49,013 nucleotides of DNA from Aquiluna sp. Its GTDB lineage: Bacteria; Actinomycetota; Actinomycetes; Actinomycetales; Microbacteriaceae. Each line of letters opens with the position of its first letter. Position 1 is the stretch's first letter. Below the pieces are notes generated by a model that saw only the letters and a list, made by a program, of their open reading frames with translations, searched no databases and had not been told where the DNA came from. Location: assembly GCA_029241985.1 (NCBI GenBank), contig JAQWUU010000037.1, forward strand, positions 1 through 49,013, written 5' to 3'. A program made the translations under genes and the position numbers. Positions 8,916-49,013 of this stretch are shown here, piece by piece.

Positions 8916-10311
8916 CCTCGAGCTGTTTGTCACCACCGCACTTATTGCTTTGGCAAGTGCGGTGGTGTCAGCGCTCATTGGCTACCCGATAGGAAACTGG
9001 CTGGCCTCTGTTTCGAAGTCTTACCGAAGATTTGTTTCGGCAGTGATTGTGGTTCCATTCTTATTGCCTCCTTTTCTGATCGGTCTAGCTCTGTTGCCAC
9101 TTCAGTCGCCGGAGATGAATTCCAGATTTGGAATACTTTGGATTATTGGTGCTCACGTTTTGATGAACGCTGGGTTCATGGCCAGAATCGTTTCTGCCAA
9201 CCAGGTACCGTCAGACCAAGTTGAGGCAGCCTCACTCGATGGCGCTGGAAGATTATCAACCAGGATCTTCGTTGAATTACCACAGCAATTGGGTGGAATG
9301 CTCTCTGCAGGATTACTTGTCGCTCTTTACAGTGCCACCAGCTACGGACTTGTTTTGACCCTGGGCCAAGGCAAGGTGCAGACGCTGGAGACTGAAATTG
9401 CGACCGCAGCGCTCAGAGATCTTGATTTCAATTCGGCTCTGGTTTTGGCTCTTCTGCAAACCGCACTCACACTTTGTTTTTTCTATTTGGCCAGATCAAT
9501 TGGTGCTGAGCCAACATCGCTATTTGGTGAGCAAGTTCCAGCTTCCAATGGTTCACGACTTGGTTGGATTCTCGGCACCTTGCTGCTGGCAGCAATCGGG
9601 TTTGTCTTTATTCAGGTCTTTTATCGCGCGGCAACTCTTGGACCCGGGTTGGTTCAAAACGTTCAAAATCTAGGTGGCAAGGGTGCCAGGGATTTATTGA
9701 ACATCTCGGTGATGGATGCAAGCATCAATTCTTTGCGAAACCTTGTGGTCGCCGCGCTAATCGCGCTGCCAATCGCCTGGCTTATTGCAGGAAGAAGAAA
9801 AACCAGCTTCGCCGTGCTCTTGCCGATAGGTATTTCCCCGGTTGTTTTCGGTCTCGTGTTTTTGATTCTTAGCGGTTACCTCCCTTCAGGAGTGCGCGGC
9901 AGTTGGCTCCTGGTTCCAATGGTGCAGAGCCTGTTTCTGATTCCCCTTAGCTATCAAGTGCTCAGGCCAGCGAGGCAAGCTGTCTCACTTGAAATCAAGG
10001 ATGCTGCTCGTTTGGATGGAGCTGTTGGATGGCAGATGTTTTCCCAAGTAGAAGCGCCGCTTGTGCGAAAGCCACTTGCAATTGCGGGTGCATTCGTAGC
10101 ACTGGGTTCACTTGGAGAGTTCGGCGCAGCTAGTTTCCTTGCCTACGGCTCTGAGGCTACGCTACCGCTGGTTTTGTTTAGGTTGATTGCAAGACCCGGG
10201 GCTGAGAACTTTGGCATGGCGATGGCAGCAGCGAGTTTGTTTGTGCTTCTTGCTTTTGTGGTGGTCTGGTTTATTTCTCGAGAAAGTCAAACGGAACTGC
10301 CAGATCGTTGA
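8905..10311 (+). CDS. thiP: Thiamine ABC transporter, fused permease
   Basis: A 468-aa membrane protein with two tandem binding-protein-dependent permease domains (roughly 1-220 and 250-460), about 12 TM helices, as in ThiP. Each half has an EAA-type cytoplasmic loop: VEAASLDGAGRLSTRIFVELP and IKDAARLDGAVGWQMFSQVE. These contact the ATPase. The start is TTG at 8905 within the end of thiB, with only a distant AAGGA, so it probably depends on translational coupling. No ATPase gene follows: the next 41 nt are shared with the convergent methyltransferase gene. The partner ThiQ-type ATPase must be elsewhere or shared. Confidence 0.9.
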   Translation: MTTNLELFVTTALIALASAVVSALIGYPIGNWLASVSKSYRRFVSAVIVVPFLLPPFLIGLALLPLQSPEMNSRFGILWIIGAHVLMNAGFMARIVSANQVPSDQVEAASLDGAGRLSTRIFVELPQQLGGMLSAGLLVALYSATSYGLVLTLGQGKVQTLETEIATAALRDLDFNSALVLALLQTALTLCFFYLARSIGAEPTSLFGEQVPASNGSRLGWILGTLLLAAIGFVFIQVFYRAATLGPGLVQNVQNLGGKGARDLLNISVMDASINSLRNLVVAALIALPIAWLIAGRRKTSFAVLLPIGISPVVFGLVFLILSGYLPSGVRGSWLLVPMVQSLFLIPLSYQVLRPARQAVSLEIKDAARLDGAVGWQMFSQVEAPLVRKPLAIAGAFVALGSLGEFGAASFLAYGSEATLPLVLFRLIARPGAENFGMAMAAASLFVLLAFVVVWFISRESQTELPDR

Positions 10312-11110
10312 GTCTTTTTTGAATCACTTCCAATGATTCAGGGTTTTGATCAACGACAGTGAAGTTCCTGCCCAGCTCAAAAGCGGCGTGAGCAGTGGTG
10401 CCGGAGCCGGCAAAGAAATCAAGTACTCGGTCACTAGGTTTTGAGCTGGCACTAATAATTCGCCTCAGAATTCCCAGTGGTTTCTGGGTTGGGTAACCGG
10501 TCTTTTCTTTTCCGGTTGGAGAAACGATGGTGTGCCACCAAACATCTGTTGGCAACTTGCCCCTTGCGACTTTCTCAGGGGTAACCAGTCCCGGTGCCAT
10601 ATATGGCTCTCGGTCAACTGTTGCAGAATCAAAGTAATAATCGTCTGGGTCGTTCACATAAACCAAGATTGTGTCGTGCTTGGCAGGCCATTTGCTTTTA
10701 GATTTCCCACCGTAGTCATAGGCCCAGATGATTTCGTTCAGGAAGCACTCCCTGCCAAATAGCGCATCCATCAGCACTTTTGCATAATGGGCTTCGCGAT
10801 AATCAAGGTGAAGGTAAATTGTTCCGGTTTTGGTCAGCAATCTTCGAGCCTCGATCAACCTTGGCTCAAGAAAGGCCCAGAAATCTGCAAACTCATCATC
10901 GTAGGACAGCACCGATTCGACAATCTGCTCATACCGCTTGCCTTGAAAACCAAGGTTTCCGGTGCTGCTAGCTCTTGATGATCTGTTTGTCCGCACCTGC
11001 TTGCGACCAGTGTTAAATGGTGGGTCGATGTAGATCAGCTGGAAAGACTCATCGGGAAGTGATTTCAACACACTTAGGTTTTCACCCTTGATAACCTGAT
11101 TGGTAGCCAT
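10271..11110 (-). CDS. Orphan site-specific DNA methyltransferase (N6-A/N4-C, beta class)
   Basis: A 279-aa SAM-dependent amino-methyltransferase acting on DNA. The order of motifs is beta class: catalytic motif IV DPPF near residue 30, then target-recognition and linker sequence, the conserved GYPTQKPLGILRRII, and SAM-binding motif I DFFAGSGTTAHAAFELGR near the C-terminus. ATG at 11110 (MATNQVIKGENL) is preferred over the longer frame that begins at 11146, which would add an unrelated hydrophobic stretch. No restriction endonuclease gene is adjacent, so it is probably a solitary methylase with a housekeeping or epigenetic role. The recognition site is not predictable here. It is divergent from the GNAT gene by 19 bp and overlaps thiP tail to tail by 41 nt. 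Confidence 0.9.
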   Translation of the reverse strand: MATNQVIKGENLSVLKSLPDESFQLIYIDPPFNTGRKQVRTNRSSRASSTGNLGFQGKRYEQIVESVLSYDDEFADFWAFLEPRLIEARRLLTKTGTIYLHLDYREAHYAKVLMDALFGRECFLNEIIWAYDYGGKSKSKWPAKHDTILVYVNDPDDYYFDSATVDREPYMAPGLVTPEKVARGKLPTDVWWHTIVSPTGKEKTGYPTQKPLGILRRIISASSKPSDRVLDFFAGSGTTAHAAFELGRNFTVVDQNPESLEVIQKRLNDLAVPFDFLEK

Positions 11111-44472: not shown

Positions 44473-44549
44473 GTGTCAGTTCCTCTTCAGGAACCATGGC
44501 TAGCCTCCAGTCATCGTAAGTTAGCTTTTAGACTCGAAGGATAAGAGAC

Positions 44550-44987
44550 ATGGAAGATCTATTGCTATTTATCGGTGGCTTGCCGGTCCACCCACTTGCT
44601 GTTCATTTTGCGGTAGTGCTTTTCCCGCTGGCCGCGCTTTTGCTGGCCCTGGTTGTTAGCTGGCCGAGATTGCGAAATCAGTTCCTCGGGATGTCGGTCA
44701 TATTTCTTGCTCTAACGGTTCCGCTGGTGTTTATTGCCCAGCAGTCAGGTGAAGCTCTCGGAGACTACTCATACGAACCTGATCCACACTCAACATTTGG
44801 TGATCTGATGACACCGGTGGCGTTGGCCACCGCAGGCGTTGCGGTCTTGTTTTGGATCGCACATAAGGTTTCCTGGCCAAAGCTAATTCTGAAGGCACTG
44901 GGGTTTTTGGTCGTGAGCGCCGCAGTTGGAGCCACGGCAATGACATTCGTGGTGGGCCACTCTGGTGCAGAGGCTGTCTGGGGATGA
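44550..44987 (+). CDS. DUF2231-family membrane protein
   Basis: A 145-aa protein with four TM helices. GGLPVHPLAVHFAVVLFPLAALLL is the typical DUF2231 start, with two conserved histidines, possibly heme or metal ligands; GDYSYEPDPHSTFGDLMTPVALATAGVA includes a third His, and the end FVVGHSGAEAVWG a fourth. The role is not known; relatives sit near redox or metal genes. ATG at 44550 has AAGGA upstream. Convergent with the small gene at 45042. Confidence 0.88.
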   Translation: MEDLLLFIGGLPVHPLAVHFAVVLFPLAALLLALVVSWPRLRNQFLGMSVIFLALTVPLVFIAQQSGEALGDYSYEPDPHSTFGDLMTPVALATAGVAVLFWIAHKVSWPKLILKALGFLVVSAAVGATAMTFVVGHSGAEAVWG

Positions 44988-45041
44988 CGACCATTCGGCT
45001 ATTGGTTTCCGATGTCAAGCGAGGCGATTAAAGCCTAAAAA

Positions 45042-45209
45042 TTAGTCGCGCTTCTTTTGAGCGGACCATAACCATGCGGCTAAGCCTGCTAGACACAGCA
45101 GCGCTGCAGCCCCAGCAACTAAATAAGTGTTCTCCGCGTAAAGATCAAAGCTCGAAACCACCATGAGAAATAGGGCGGTGTATCCCAAGAGAATCCACTT
45201 TTTGTTCAC
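45042..45209 (-). CDS. 55-aa membrane protein, function unknown
   Basis: A short frame from GTG at 45209 to TAA at 45042 encodes a protein beginning MNKKWILLGYTALFLMVV and ending WLWSAQKKRD. It has two hydrophobic segments (about 5-18 and 31-50) and a basic C-terminus that suits a two-TM peptide. AAGG lies close to the GTG (weak spacing). The composition and charges look coding, and it would fill an otherwise empty gap between DUF2231 and the acyltransferase. No family recognised. Confidence 0.55.
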   Translation of the reverse strand: MNKKWILLGYTALFLMVVSSFDLYAENTYLVAGAAALLCLAGLAAWLWSAQKKRD

Positions 45210-45374
45210 ACCTTGATTCTAGGTGTCAAAAAATATTTGTGTGTTCGTAACCAAGAAAAGAAGTGTCTCATCGTGTCTAGGAGGTTTAACTTGCGGAGAC
45301 CAGAGCGGTATGCATTCCGCTAAACCAATCACTGTGAGCCCATATTTTTGGAGATCGGACTATTTTTTTGGGTT

Positions 45375-46427
45375 CTATCCCCTAGCTCGCAAAGGGTAAC
45401 GCTTACCGTTGAGCAAGCGTGAAAGTGGGGTATGCCTTACTAAAAGTTTGTAGCTCACCACACCAAAAACGGCGGTGAACAGACTGGTTAAAAATACGAC
45501 CGGCAGGGCCGAGAGTCCGGACCTGCTTAGTGCGACCAAACAGACAAATACCACCGGCAAATGAATCAGATAAATCCAATAGCTCGCTTCAGAAACAAAC
45601 TTCATGACGCGGTTTTGGTTATTTCCAACCCTCAAAAATAGACCAATCACCCCATATGCCCCGAGGACAACCGCACTGGAATAAACCCAGCCAGTGCCCG
45701 CTAATTCAAGGTCCTGAACCAGAAAAAAGTAGCTAAAGGTTGCTAGCAAGGCCGCAATTAGCCAAAAAGATCCTTTTTTCAACTGCCCAAGCCATAGCTC
45801 CTGTTGAAGATAGGCAACTGCCCCCGACAAGTAAATTAGGAAGTAAATGGTTAGCAGACCTGGTTCGGGTATGAGCTTTGTGCTGGTTGCGAGAGTGCCC
45901 TCCCTGTCCAGAACTCCCGGGATCAAAGGAAGAACGATTACCAAAATCCCCATGTACCAGCCTGGTCGTATTCGCCTGACTAGAGCCTTTTTGAAAAGCG
46001 GCCATGCAAGAAAAAGAACCAGGCTAAAGAGAAAGAGAAAGTGCAGAAACCAAAGGTGCTGAAAGTCAACAGGAAAGAACCGGAAATACTCTGTTCCTTT
46101 GATCCAAGAGCCTTGGCTTGCCCCGATGTTGGCGACACTAAGAGGAGGCCAGAAAATTACAAGTGGTAACAGAATCCTCCAAGTGCGATTTTTCAAGAAC
46201 CGATTTCGGCCCCGGGTGTCCAGCAGGTAAGCGGCGAGAAACCCGGCGATTACAAAGAAGGCGGGCATCCTGAATACGTGCAGGAACTGGTATACGTAAA
46301 CCACGAACAAAAACTCTGCGGTACCGCTTGGCGGCTGATAGAGGTAAACAAAGACAAAGGAGTGATAAACGATTCCGGATAGAAGCAGCACTGCTTTTGC
46401 ATTATCCAGAGCCGCAATTCGATTCAT
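45375..46427 (-). CDS. Acyltransferase 3-family membrane protein
   Basis: A 350-aa polytopic protein of the acyltransferase-3 (OafA/YrhL) family, transferring acyl groups to glycans or other envelope molecules. About ten TM helices. RIAALDNAKAVLLLSGIVYHSFVF is the family start with the catalytic His; FLHVFRMPAFFVIAGFLAAYLL is the conserved FR..FF segment; QHLWFLHFLFLFSLVLFLAW is typical. The acceptor is unknown. ATG at 46427. It is monocistronic. Upstream 45210-45374 on its far side contains a hairpin (45304-45321) and an isolated AGGAGG but no supported gene. Confidence 0.9.
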   Translation of the reverse strand: MNRIAALDNAKAVLLLSGIVYHSFVFVYLYQPPSGTAEFLFVVYVYQFLHVFRMPAFFVIAGFLAAYLLDTRGRNRFLKNRTWRILLPLVIFWPPLSVANIGASQGSWIKGTEYFRFFPVDFQHLWFLHFLFLFSLVLFLAWPLFKKALVRRIRPGWYMGILVIVLPLIPGVLDREGTLATSTKLIPEPGLLTIYFLIYLSGAVAYLQQELWLGQLKKGSFWLIAALLATFSYFFLVQDLELAGTGWVYSSAVVLGAYGVIGLFLRVGNNQNRVMKFVSEASYWIYLIHLPVVFVCLVALSRSGLSALPVVFLTSLFTAVFGVVSYKLLVRHTPLSRLLNGKRYPLRARG

Positions 46428-46451
46428 AGGCCCACGCTAGCAGCTAATTAC

Positions 46452-46485
46452 AAGCAGTCCAGCTAGGTACACCCTCAGTGGCAAG
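46452..46485 (+). repeat. 34-nt direct repeat, copy 1
   Basis: This 34-nt sequence recurs at 47018-47051 with two differences (A/G at the 18th, G/A at the 29th position). It starts aagcagtccagctaggtaca. It lies in the 46428-46654 gap, outside the coding regions. Beyond it I see only the AGGAG site of the 64-aa gene and no other structure. Confidence 0.85.
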
Positions 46486-46654
46486 CCTCTCTTCCAAGCC
46501 AGAAAACCCAGAGCAGGAAGGGTTCTCAGCCGAGGTCGCTAAGCAGGCAGAGTGAGAATTGGGGTTAGAAGAAACATCCCCGCCCCACCAGACACAGTAG
46601 TTGACTTTCTTCCGCCTGGCTGGAAAGGTGAGGCAACTAGAAAAAGGAGCGAGA

Positions 46655-46849
46655 ATGGGCTGGTACTGGGTTGGATTTGCGATCGGTATCTACATGACCT
46701 GGGGTGGTGCAACTAAGTCCTCAGCAAAGCCTTATTTCTTTCTCCACGCCAAGGCGAGCCTGCTCTGGAAGAAATATGCCCACGCTTTTCTTTTGATCTC
46801 TGGGCTTGCGGTGTCACAAGTGATGCTTGTTCTGGCATTGGCTGGGTAA
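46655..46849 (+). CDS. 64-aa membrane protein, function unknown
   Basis: A small protein with two hydrophobic segments (MGWYWVGFAIGIYMTWGG at the start, and ALLISGLAVSQVMLVLALAG at the end), connected by a basic loop SSAKPYFFLHAKASLLWKKYAH. ATG at 46655 is supported by AGGAG six to eight nt upstream; the open frame upstream has no such site. No family recognised. It lies directly before the truncated tRNA-Ala copy. Confidence 0.6.
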   Translation: MGWYWVGFAIGIYMTWGGATKSSAKPYFFLHAKASLLWKKYAHAFLLISGLAVSQVMLVLALAG

Positions 46850-46853
46850 CGAC

Positions 46854-46873
46854 AAAAACCCTCCCGTTGGGAG
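46854..46873 (-). terminator. Decayed copy of the tRNA-Ala terminator
   Basis: CTCCC-GTT-GGGAG (46861-46873) is a short stem followed on the minus strand by TTTTT. Its first 15 nt are identical to 48746-48760 of the intact terminator, with a 3-nt deletion in the loop region. Confidence 0.55.
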
Positions 46874-46904
46874 AGTCTTCCACTTTGTGGAGACTAGGGG
46901 GGTC
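46854..46904 (-). repeat. Truncated tRNA-Ala 3' end plus terminator (att-like repeat, left copy)
   Basis: 51 nt align to 48746-48799 with three substitutions and one 3-nt indel. Positions 46882-46904 (23 nt) are identical to 48777-48799, covering the last 16 nt of tRNA-Ala (acceptor strand and part of the T-arm), the discriminator and the first 6 nt beyond. The tRNA 5' two-thirds are missing here. This is the pattern of an attL/attR pair at a tRNA 3' end, or a decayed tRNA duplicate. Confidence 0.85.
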
Positions 46905-47017
46905 TATGTTGCCCCATGTTCTCTCTAGTTGTGACGCTAATCTTAAGAAATCAGACTATCTGGTACGTGAATCTTCGGCTAGGCAAGTCTGAGTGAATCG
47001 TTCCCCAGATGCCCCAG

Positions 47018-47051
47018 AAGCAGTCCAGCTAGGTGCACCCTCAGTAGCAAG
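47018..47051 (+). repeat. 34-nt direct repeat, copy 2
   Basis: Second copy of the repeat at 46452-46485, 566 nt away, 32 of 34 identical. It lies just beyond the DUF305 stop. Its right part with the following sequence can pair (ACCCTCA at 47036-47042 with TGAGGGT), but without a T-tract on the minus strand, so a terminator role is doubtful. Confidence 0.85.
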
Positions 47052-47082
47052 AATTGACTCTTGAGGGTTGGGTTATGGGTGG

Positions 47083-47727
47083 TCAGGATTGTGCCAACAA
47101 AGTTTGCATTAGCCTAATTTCTTCATTCTGAGCCTCGATAATTGCCTCGCCAAGGGCCCTTGCTTCTGAGTTGTTTGAGTCAACTATCATTTGCGCCATC
47201 TCAATTGCTCCCTCGTGGTGAGCAATCATTCCCTCGAGGAAGAGCTTGTCAAAAGCTGGCCCTTTGGCATCTTGTAATGCCTGCATTTCTGCTTCACCAA
47301 GCATTCCCCCCATATTCATGTCATGGCCCATGTCCAAAGGGGAATTAGTATCATTCAACCAACGAGTCATTTGGGTGATTTCCGGTGACTGCTCGGCCTG
47401 AATTTTTGCCGCAAGGGATTTCACATCTGGGCTAAAGGCGCGTGATTCAGCTAGGGCCCCCATTTCGACCGCTTGTTGGTGATGCGGGATCATCATCTGG
47501 GCAAACATTATGTCCCAACCGGAGAAGGCTTGACTGCTGTCAATAGTGCTGTTCCCTGTCGTTCCCTGTTCGTCTTCGGAACCACTCGTGCCAAAATTTA
47601 TTGTGCAGCCCACGAGCATGAGAGAGAGAAGCAATAGACTCGCACTCCCTGCGGTAAAACGGAGAGCTGAGATTCTCTTCAGCTCTGAAGGTGCCCCTGA
47701 GGATTTTTTTGACATAAGCAGTTTCAT
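47083..47727 (-). CDS. DUF305-family lipoprotein
   Basis: A 214-aa lipid-anchored extracytoplasmic protein. The signal ends in lipobox LVGC; a Ser/Thr/Glu linker follows. The DUF305 domain has two matching halves: MFAQMMIPHHQQAVEMGALA and LFLEGMIAHHEGAIEMAQMI, each with HH and Met, separated by a Met/His-rich stretch (DMGHDMNMGGM). The paired HH/Met arrangement suggests metal binding, likely copper, but that is inference. ATG at 47727 is used; ATG at 47715 is possible, and neither has a clear SD. Positions 47728-47836 contain a small inverted repeat AGCC/GGCT (47742-47753). Downstream of the BNR lipoprotein on the same strand. Confidence 0.9.
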   Translation of the reverse strand: MKLLMSKKSSGAPSELKRISALRFTAGSASLLLLSLMLVGCTINFGTSGSEDEQGTTGNSTIDSSQAFSGWDIMFAQMMIPHHQQAVEMGALAESRAFSPDVKSLAAKIQAEQSPEITQMTRWLNDTNSPLDMGHDMNMGGMLGEAEMQALQDAKGPAFDKLFLEGMIAHHEGAIEMAQMIVDSNNSEARALGEAIIEAQNEEIRLMQTLLAQS

Positions 47728-47836
47728 GTACAAAGGGTAAGCCTGAAGGCTGCTAAATTACCCTGAATTGTCAGCAATCCAGACGGTTGGAAATTTTTGA
47801 TGGGAGCTGGGTCACATGCTTCCCCGACACAAGATC

Positions 47837-48661
47837 TCAGGGCAAGAGCTCGAAGGTGATCCCATTGTCCCTCGAGACATGGACACCATTCCCGTCCATG
47901 ACTATTACCGCTTTGGAGCTCGCTGCCAGTGCGGTAATTTTGTTGAACTCCTTTGACAGAGCAGCAAAAGGACCCTCTGGCACAGGGCTGAAGTAAATCT
48001 TGGTGCTTGTCGCATAGTAAACGCCGCCATCAGACCACTCGAGGAGATTTGCGGAAGCAGGGGTGGCAACTGGCTCGAATGGCTTACCAGCTTCACTTGA
48101 CTTGAGTAACACCCCATCCGAGGCAAGAAGCAATTCATTGCCGTTCGCGGGATTTAAGACAAGGCTTGTCAAAGCGGGCACCTCTATGCTGGACCAACTC
48201 TTACCCCCGTCGATAGAGGTAATCACAATCCCATAGTTCGCTGCCACGCCAACCATGGTGTCTCCTGATACCTCCAGCAGATGAAAGTCAACCTCCCCGG
48301 TCAATGCATCTGGAACCCAAGAACGACCGCCATCTTCAGAAACCAGAATTCCAAGTGGGTTTGGCAGGGGTTGGCGTGGTCCCGGGTGACCGCTTCCATA
48401 GAAAATGCCATCTGAAATTGAAAACCCCATGAGGTCCATTTCGTCTCCGCGGAGGGTCCACGAGTCTTCTGACAAAGCGTAGAGCCCGTGGTGGCTCGCC
48501 AGAAAAAACTCTTCACCATCTGTGGCGACGCTGTGGACGTGTTCAAGATCGGCTAAAGACAGCCCAGAATTGACGGCCGCACAACCGCTCAGCAACGCTA
48601 ACCCGAACAAGCCAGTGCCAATTGCGGCAAAATTTCGACTTGTAACACGTGACAATGACAT
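47837..48661 (-). CDS. BNR-repeat lipoprotein (sialidase-like/F510_1955 type)
   Basis: A 274-aa lipid-anchored protein predicted as a beta-propeller. The signal MSLSRVTSRNFAAIGTGLFG ends in lipobox LSGC. Asp-box/BNR signatures recur: SEDGGRSW, SIDGGKSW and SRDNGITF, spaced along the chain, and LEHVHSVATDGEEFFLASHHGLY is the usual start of the family. Such proteins are often called glycosyl hydrolases, but no catalytic residues are evident and a photosystem-stability or scaffolding role is equally possible. ATG at 48661 is preferred (GGGAG 8 nt upstream) over the longer frame from 48706. Together with DUF305 it forms the cargo between the two tRNA-Ala 3' repeats. Confidence 0.85.
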   Translation of the reverse strand: MSLSRVTSRNFAAIGTGLFGLALLSGCAAVNSGLSLADLEHVHSVATDGEEFFLASHHGLYALSEDSWTLRGDEMDLMGFSISDGIFYGSGHPGPRQPLPNPLGILVSEDGGRSWVPDALTGEVDFHLLEVSGDTMVGVAANYGIVITSIDGGKSWSSIEVPALTSLVLNPANGNELLLASDGVLLKSSEAGKPFEPVATPASANLLEWSDGGVYYATSTKIYFSPVPEGPFAALSKEFNKITALAASSKAVIVMDGNGVHVSRDNGITFELLP

Positions 48662-48745
48662 AAAGGGTGCTCCCTTGAGGAGATGGCGGTCTTTAACTAT
48701 AAACATCCGGAGTGCAGATCAGACTATTTATGCTCATGGTAAAAG

Positions 48746-48774
48746 AAAAACCCTCCCGTTCCCGGGAGGGTTTT
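48746..48774 (-). terminator. Terminator of the tRNA-Ile/tRNA-Ala transcript
   Basis: AAAACCCTCCCG (48747-48758) pairs perfectly with CGGGAGGGTTTT (48763-48774), a 12-bp stem with a TTCC loop. On the minus strand TTTTTCTTTT follows, making a strong intrinsic terminator 9 nt behind tRNA-Ala. Confidence 0.93.
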
Positions 48775-48782
48775 CTACTTTG

Positions 48783-48855
48783 TGGAGACTAGGGGGGTCG
48801 AACCCCTGACCCCCTGCTTGCAAAGCAGGTGCTCTACCAACTGAGCTAAGTCCCC
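48783..48855 (-). tRNA. tRNA-Ala (anticodon UGC)
   Basis: A 73-nt tRNA with acceptor stem GGGGACT/AGTCTCC (one G-U pair), discriminator A and no encoded CCA. The D-arm is TAGCTCAGTTGGTAGAGCA, the anticodon stem CCTGC/GCAGG closes the loop TTTGCAA with TGC, and the T-arm is AGGGGTTCGACCCCCCT. The last part is duplicated at 46882-46904. It is 34 nt behind tRNA-Ile and ends before the strong terminator. Confidence 0.97.
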
Positions 48856-48889
48856 ATAGCGAGCATTCCTTGGCGGAAAGTGCTCACCG

Positions 48890-48963
48890 TGGGCCTAGGA
48901 GGACTTGAACCTCCGACCTCTTCATTATCAGTGAAGCGCTCTAACCACCTGAGCTATAGGCCC
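48890..48963 (-). tRNA. tRNA-Ile (anticodon GAU)
   Basis: A 74-nt tRNA with acceptor stem GGGCCTA/TAGGCCC and discriminator A. Anticodon stem CTTCA/TGAAG closes the loop CTGATAA, giving GAT. T-arm is CGGAGGTTCAAGTCCTCC. The tRNA-Ile/tRNA-Ala pair in one transcript near crgA-pknB is the arrangement found downstream of gyrA in many actinobacteria; gyrA would lie outside the window. Confidence 0.97.
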
Positions 48964-48976
48964 GTTGAGCAAGTTG

Positions 48977-49005
48977 ATGCTACTAGAAAAAACCAACCGC
49001 CACAA
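48977..49005 (-). promoter_or_regulatory. Putative tRNA-Ile/tRNA-Ala promoter
   Basis: On the minus strand TTGTGG (49005-49000), a 17-nt spacer and TAGCAT (48982-48977) lie upstream of tRNA-Ile, with about 13 nt to the tRNA 5' end. The -35 is only half-consensus, so this is a suggestion. Confidence 0.4.
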
Positions 49006-49013
49006 ACTCTAAT

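Follow-up and report, generated by a model that had tools for sequence, protein, structure and literature searches.

A probable small integrative cassette at the 3′ end of tRNA-Ala in Aquiluna, and related units at the same locus

Closest described systems

In integrons, small cassettes stand in arrays and share the recombination site that delimits them. Here we describe an array that resembles integron cassettes in this respect, located at a tRNA-Ala gene of Aquiluna (Microbacteriaceae). The stretch analysed (the window, 49,013 nt) is the entire contig C37 (JAQWUU010000037.1) of a draft genome, G000 (GCA_029241985.1; 1.31 Mb, 90.5% complete). Positions 46905–48799 of the window, ≈ 1.9 kb with two main open reading frames (ORFs) encoding a DUF305 and a BNR protein, are probably a small integrative cassette that was inserted by site-specific recombination at the tRNA-Ala 3′ end.

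Cassettes marked by tRNA repeats, or additive flexible genomic islands (fGIs), occur in streamlined plankton according to excerpts of two papers: one on Ca. Actinomarinales, which reports cassette transfer between genera (PMC7771536), and one on fGI-2 of Ca. Methylopumilus, in which additive islands range from 330 bp and one coding sequence up to 42 kb (PMC10872708). The words "integrase" and "recombinase" are absent from the main text of PMC7771536. Streamlined plankton acquire small gene sets at tRNA sites, and the excerpts leave open how integrase-less cassettes move. Like these cassettes, the one in the window lies beside a tRNA whose 3′ part recurs as a direct repeat, and its locus has a variable gene content in relatives, vacant sites included. 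Unlike them, it has tRNA-Ala as its target and belongs to another lineage. Arm-type sites (short motifs at set distances from the recombination core) are not described in those excerpts, whereas here a terminator, a core and spaced arms are defined.

Three other systems are comparable. Cis-mobilizable elements (CIMEs) are described, in the excerpt of PMC5704250, as decayed integrative and conjugative or integrative and mobilizable elements. The Aquiluna units are likewise flanked by attachment (att) sites, lack integration genes and accrete in tandem at one target; unlike CIMEs in that description, they are gene-sized, form recurrent arrays and include at least one unit that apparently moved as such. 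Islands at ssrA of Dehalococcoides lie in tandem downstream of an RNA gene, some without an integration module, and were suggested to be possible CIMEs (PMC3146451, in excerpt). Their module is a serine recombinase, whereas 12 genomes with the present array contained no match to PF00239. Tycheposons are tRNA-associated islands of streamlined plankton that span 4–200 kb and carry a tyrosine recombinase (PMC10872708, in excerpt). The window cassette is also a tRNA-associated island of mobile type in streamlined plankton; it differs in being 1.9 kb long and in having no PF00589 match on its contig. Among the matches listed from the open-licence literature, we recognised no description of this array in Aquiluna. 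The system is thus known in outline, and what is new is a defined site and one site type common to integrase-less units across genera.

A repeat of the tRNA-Ala 3′ end bounds the cassette

We compared the window with a genus sample of 22 Aquiluna genomes, G000 included, and reached other genera through 398 family genomes; most of the genomes compared are drafts. The features at the two cassette ends are as follows.

46854–46881, minus strand: displaced former chromosomal tRNA-Ala terminator, assigned by geometry; 46850–46885 folds at −14.5 kcal/mol
46882–46904: left core, a 23-nt copy of the tRNA-Ala 3′ end (repeat alignment, site profile)
48746–48781, minus strand: cassette-borne tRNA-Ala terminator; 48742–48782 folds at −23.6 kcal/mol (z −4.97)
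48777–48799: right core, the predicted crossover region, identical to the left copy (repeat alignment)
48782–48855, minus strand: intact tRNA-Ala(TGC), the target gene, its 3′ end apparently restored by the cassette-borne copy (ARAGORN, Rfam)

The two cores are identical over 23 nt and bear the tRNA-Ala 3′ end. Similarity runs on through the terminator (46854–46904 versus 48746–48799), where 48 of 54 columns are identical (88.9%); this fits the three substitutions and 3-nt gap reported in an earlier sequence-only reading of this DNA. With equal base frequencies assumed, the chance expectation of an exact 23-nt pair in 49 kb is ∼ 2e-5. ARAGORN found one intact tRNA-Ala in the window and none at 46.9 kb, and an Rfam scan of 44500–49013 returned two tRNAs and nothing else. 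The same reading had seen two main genes and no integrase in the cassette, and this held: the contig had no PF00589 match and G000 no PF00239 match.

Vacant sites were found in two relatives. The left copy is flanked by a gene of 82 codons that is present in 6 of the 22 genus genomes. In G014 and G002, 3–4 nt separate the stop of this gene from the A-run at the start of the tRNA-Ala terminator, with no cassette between (the G014 copy has one in-frame TAG). Such cassette-free relatives, with tRNA-Ala directly beside this gene, were what the sequence-only reading had named as support for integration. When the cassette was removed and the window joined at 46904/48800, it aligned end to end with both. 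Homology with G014 extends to 46904, where the left core ends, and picks up again at the right terminator. These vacant sites are the whole of the evidence for movement of the window's own cassette. Together with larger, integrase-bearing elements at the same locus (G001, 6.6 kb; G011, 9.0 kb), which that reading had also proposed to look for, they support integration at a tRNA 3′ end.

The alternative offered earlier, that an ancestral tRNA-Ala tandem decayed, has the shared 3′ half and terminator as its sole support. However, none of 15 aligned left copies reaches the tRNA 5′ half, and most run on into a shared element arm. Given also that vacant sites exist, that every locus where ARAGORN finds a tRNA-Ala has a single one, and that two full copies were seen in none of the loci scanned, we rejected tandem decay as highly improbable.

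The left terminator hairpin is weaker than the right one (−14.5 versus −23.6 kcal/mol, for slightly different lengths folded), as expected of a terminator that has ceased to end a tRNA. The right terminator is closer than the left to the terminators of G014 and G002. This is not simply expected from the geometry, and we attribute it to erosion of the left terminator. Base composition, proposed earlier as a check, was weakly informative: 4 of 147 windows deviated as much or more in 4-mers and the GC content was ordinary, and we set composition aside as a sign of foreign origin.

Both ends carry arm-type sites

ATCAGACTAT is present at both cassette ends, with a defined spacing from the core:

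46948–46959, plus strand: left arm-type site AAATCAGACTAT; its TCAGACTAT begins 62 nt after the core start (46889); single copy, no tandem
48718–48728, plus strand: right arm-type site ATCAGACTATT; its TCAGACTAT begins 65 nt before the core start GGAGACTA (48784)

The cassette thus has flanks of the attL/attR type as predicted sites, with cores on both sides and one arm-like motif on each. In the units of relatives, the motif is often a 12-bp tandem. An alignment of left ends showed a block inside the left core that is common to most units and ends in AAATCAGACTATAAATCAGACTATT or a single copy thereof. Scored as TCAGACTAT with ≤ 1 mismatch, left arms were present in 19 of the 20 integrase-less units delimited below, 60–62 and/or 72–75 nt from the left core start, with both copies in 10 of the 20. 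The motif AATCAGACTAT (≤ 1 mismatch, both strands) had two matches in the 49-kb window, and these mark the two cassette ends, with arm-type motifs at 46949 and 48717.

In a control, 36-nt stretches placed at random anywhere in these loci, att regions included, matched at a rate of 0.0059. Shuffled motifs reached at most 11 of 44 ends (mean 0.2 over 300) versus 23 of 44 observed. Since the arms were spotted by eye in the left-end alignment and the counting covered many of the loci used there, these counts describe the pattern rather than test it blindly. The more independent evidence is the confinement of the arms to this locus and their occurrence in other genera. The tandem with ≤ 3 mismatches gave 16 matches in 9 of the 22 genus genomes, all at this locus (reversed control, 2). 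At this threshold it was absent from the window's own genome, because the window keeps single arm copies. With ≤ 2 mismatches, 5 of the 398 family genomes matched, of which G376, G391 and G303 were new. A genus search for the arm tandem matched 2 of 60 genomes, adding G429, and the reversed control matched once. The exact arm pattern had no match in IMG/VR.

Different tandem motifs, TTCAAACAG and TTTACGACA, are found in the two integrase islands (G011 and G001), where their offsets are 62/74 on the left (in G001 also 51) and 66/78 on the right. These offsets are within 2 nt of those of the units (60–62/72–75 left, 64–65/76 right). Because this near-identical geometry is tied to an integrase gene in the islands, we read the motifs as putative arm sites that an integrase would bind.

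Integrase-less units form an array at the locus

A profile built from ten left sites of relatives, with the window excluded, found three sites in the window: 46852–46959 (50.4 bits, E 4e-14), the tRNA (45.1 bits) and 45281–45363 (23.5 bits); the shuffled maximum was 6.7 bits. Extra sites were present at the locus in 11 of the 22 Aquiluna genomes (G000, G001, G003, G004, G005, G008, G011, G012, G014, G018 and G019). In seven, the tRNA site was the single match at E < 1e-3 on the plus strand of the stretch covered (G002, G006, G007, G009, G010, G017 and G020). In G021 there was a right arm alone, in G015 the contig ends at the tRNA, and G013 and G016 had no full match to the locus.

We defined units as spans between consecutive profile matches of at least 23.5 bits, the exceptions being the window's left match, at 23.5, and some tRNA copies, which score lower. 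This delimited 22 units in 13 genomes, namely the 11 above plus G303 and G391 from other genera. No integrase was found in 20 of the 22, which measure 455–4635 nt core to core; two carry one (G001, 6580 nt; G011, 9001 nt). The search for PF00589 covered the 20 Aquiluna units, 18 of which lacked it, and G303 and G391 were judged from their ORF lists. Units cut by contig ends or with no left site found were left out of the counts (G003 C6/L081, G021/L086, G376/L119–L120, the unit left of the G011 island and the join of two G018 contigs), as was G429/L123, which was scanned separately. Many of the units read consist of one or two ORFs; the 4.6-kb unit of G014 has about eight. Their cargo includes a methyltransferase, a short-chain dehydrogenase, DUF1801 with AHSA1, glyoxalase-like, DoxX-like and DUF6326 proteins, a protein resembling multicopper oxidases, which falls short of the curated cut-offs, and membrane proteins of no assigned family. 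In G008 (L084, oriented 10290–10667), an att-like site is next to an ORF with the look, by eye, of a C-terminal multicopper oxidase fragment, as though a unit had been cut or recombined at this point.

Several contigs end at this site (C37 and C6 of G000, and contigs of G005, G018 and G003). The end of the window, 48848–49012, overlaps the end of contig C6 (G000:C6:6673–6837) by 165 nt at 95% identity, which indicates that the assembly breaks at this tRNA pair and holds two sequence versions. Such breaks fit population variation and also ordinary breaks caused by repeats.

Recombinases of the array genomes

Two PF00589 proteins each were found in G014, G005 and G018 (98, 96 and 90% complete). 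By best NCBIfam match each pair is one XerD-like and one XerC-like protein; the names go by best match because five of the six lie below the curated XerC/XerD cut-offs. Models of integron integrases gave 60–111 bits for these six proteins, versus cut-offs of 265 and 435. No IntI was thus found among six recombinases of three array genomes, and on that ground, with no search aimed at attC sites, we rejected an integron; unlike an integron site, moreover, the Aquiluna site is a tRNA end with arms. A serine-integrase system was ruled out by the absence of PF00239 from the 12 array genomes, in a search whose control was positive in 10 of 14. By eye, the G011 island also has an ORF resembling a serine recombinase.

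G019 had four PF00589 matches, one of them weak and with a stop at the contig end. G000 also had four, none on the window contig and one beside tRNA-Lys. At the latter locus (G000:C1, L116, 23–1361), tRNA-Lys directly precedes a 389-aa integrase and small genes; this seems to be an integrative element of its own.

One possible sign of descent from an integrase element was seen, in one genome. Directly inside a cassette-type right arm, G011 carries a truncated integrase N-terminus of 105 aa, which shares 39% identity with the N-terminal part of the island integrase. This remnant is the sole candidate for a cognate integrase. In the genus and family searches it matched itself alone. The island integrase itself had no match in IMG/VR and two distant matches in phage records (22.6% and 25.1% identity).

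Units shared between species

A cassette with a gene of 316 codons was 95.8% identical between G005 and G012 over 1186 columns core to core, versus 78.3% for gyrA (G012 we take, from its naming style, to be a single-cell genome). Its right end (110 nt plus core) was 98.4% identical and is followed by the tRNA in G005 and by another cassette in G012. The neighbours differ on both sides, and the block of identity ends at the cores. The cargo gene of G005 had no match in IMG/VR. A second cassette, with a membrane gene of 99–106 codons, is common to G003 and G391, the latter from another genus (cargo 78.3%, gyrA 66.7%). For G376, of a third genus, the comparison covered the last 190 nt of this cassette, which were 94.1% identical between G376 and G391 (gyrA 69.2%) and 83.0% between G376 and G003 (gyrA 63.6%).

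Exchange of this kind could also result from RecA-type homologous recombination through the conserved tRNA and att ends, in which case an integrase would have acted in the distant past only. The units do have similar ends of ∼ 120 nt, and the tRNA side is conserved. However, the DNA on either side of the unit shared by G005 and G012 differs between the two genomes and the identity stops at the cores, and the spacing of the arms is kept while the sequence from core to arm varies. We regard this explanation as unlikely.

How the units may move

We consider it likely that the units are CIME-like, gene-sized cassettes and that a tyrosine integrase acting in trans moves them. A unit would circularise by recombination of core with core, to give a circle that contains a terminator, a tRNA 3′ end and arm sites of its own. 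Another element would then provide the tyrosine integrase in trans, and this enzyme would bind the arms and insert the circle at the tRNA. With insertion at the tRNA, the newest unit would lie beside it and older ones would be displaced outward. Such a unit might work as a CIME cut down to one or two genes, with the array logic of integron cassettes. The helper integrase is one that we infer and did not find.

Several results weigh against movement in trans. Among the 20 units without integrase, only those of the window, G003, G303 and G391, 4 in all, have a right arm, 64–65 (and 76) nt before the core; additional ones occur in the uncounted units of G003 C6, G021, G376 and the unit left of the G011 island. 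One left site, in G014, has no arm. A full-length cognate integrase, searched with the G011 fragment, was found in none of the 22 genus genomes, the 398 family genomes or IMG/VR. The window has a single arm copy at each end, so that its cassette may no longer move. No excised circle was seen, and no search was aimed at one. Other cargo in common has diverged to the extent that old inheritance would produce: identity is 64% over 332 nt for the methyltransferase units of G018 and G008, and 72.1% over the last 300 nt between G003 and G021, where the membrane gene has a right arm and no left site; for the AHSA1 regions of G005 and G008 it is 70% over 210 nt. Finally, gyrA was the sole yardstick of divergence.

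Some of these points would suit a shrunken island, that is, a larger element that lost its integrase and most genes by deletion and left attL/attR and two cargo genes, immobile. The sequence-only reading had named this possibility beside a minimal integrating cassette, and it partly overlaps movement in trans. The 6.6- and 9.0-kb integrase islands use the same core, G011 retains an integrase remnant next to a right arm of the cassette kind, each side of the window cassette has one arm copy, and 16 of the 20 integrase-less units lack the right arm, as deletion of the integrase end would leave them. Nevertheless, 18 of 20 Aquiluna units are without PF00589; these measure 0.5–4.6 kb and have nearly always kept the left arm, and at least one such unit apparently moved between species as is. 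The minimal cassette fits better, and we consider the shrunken island less likely than not.

A broader proposal is tentative. The locus could be a standing system of gene cassettes, comparable to integrons yet based on a tRNA att site, in which arrays of gene-sized units share a terminator–core–arm site, host cells often have no integrase beyond the Xer pair (as in three genomes), and a visiting integrase reshuffles single genes and spreads them between genera of streamlined aquatic actinobacteria. The site is concrete and testable: a terminator, a core of 18–23 nt, and arms ∼ 62/74 nt right of the left core and 64–66/76–78 nt before the right core. Its definition could separate mobile units from debris, predict the helper integrase and allow scans of other genomes.

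Cargo and neighbouring features

The cassette has two cargo genes:

47083–47715, minus strand: DUF305 lipoprotein, matching a CopM family metallochaperone model (94.2 bits, cut-off 90)
47837–48661, minus strand: BNR-repeat lipoprotein, F510_1955-like (174 bits, just under the cut-off of 175)

The cargo probably functions in copper handling in the cell envelope. No transfer gene was seen among the two main ORFs, and no search was aimed at transfer genes. The best genus homologues by score are 58% (DUF305, G010) and 54% (BNR, G017) identical, and both lie outside the locus. In G010 (L049), homologues of both genes are adjacent, outside the array and beside the end of a P-type ATPase recognised by eye. 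This pair is a possible source type for the window cargo.

Left of the cassette lie three further features:

45281–45363, plus strand: eroded left att-like site; core with 4/17 mismatches and one arm-like motif at offset 60 (23.5 bits)
45375–46427, minus strand: acyltransferase (PF01757), possible cargo of an older unit
46601–46849, plus strand: ORF of 82 aa (64 aa from the ATG at 46655: 46655–46849), possible cargo of an older unit; adjoins tRNA-Ala in G014 and G002

The eroded third site makes the acyltransferase and the 82-aa gene possible cargo of an older unit. The faintness of this site counts against such a unit, as does the lack of a site left of the acyltransferase in G012 and G004. 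The sequence-only reading had treated the gene at 46.6 kb as a flank; that it may itself be cargo is new relative to that reading, as are the arm sites and the array. By eye, we also saw a 34-nt direct repeat with two differences, at 46452–46485 (upstream of the acyltransferase start) and 47018–47051 (downstream of the DUF305 stop).

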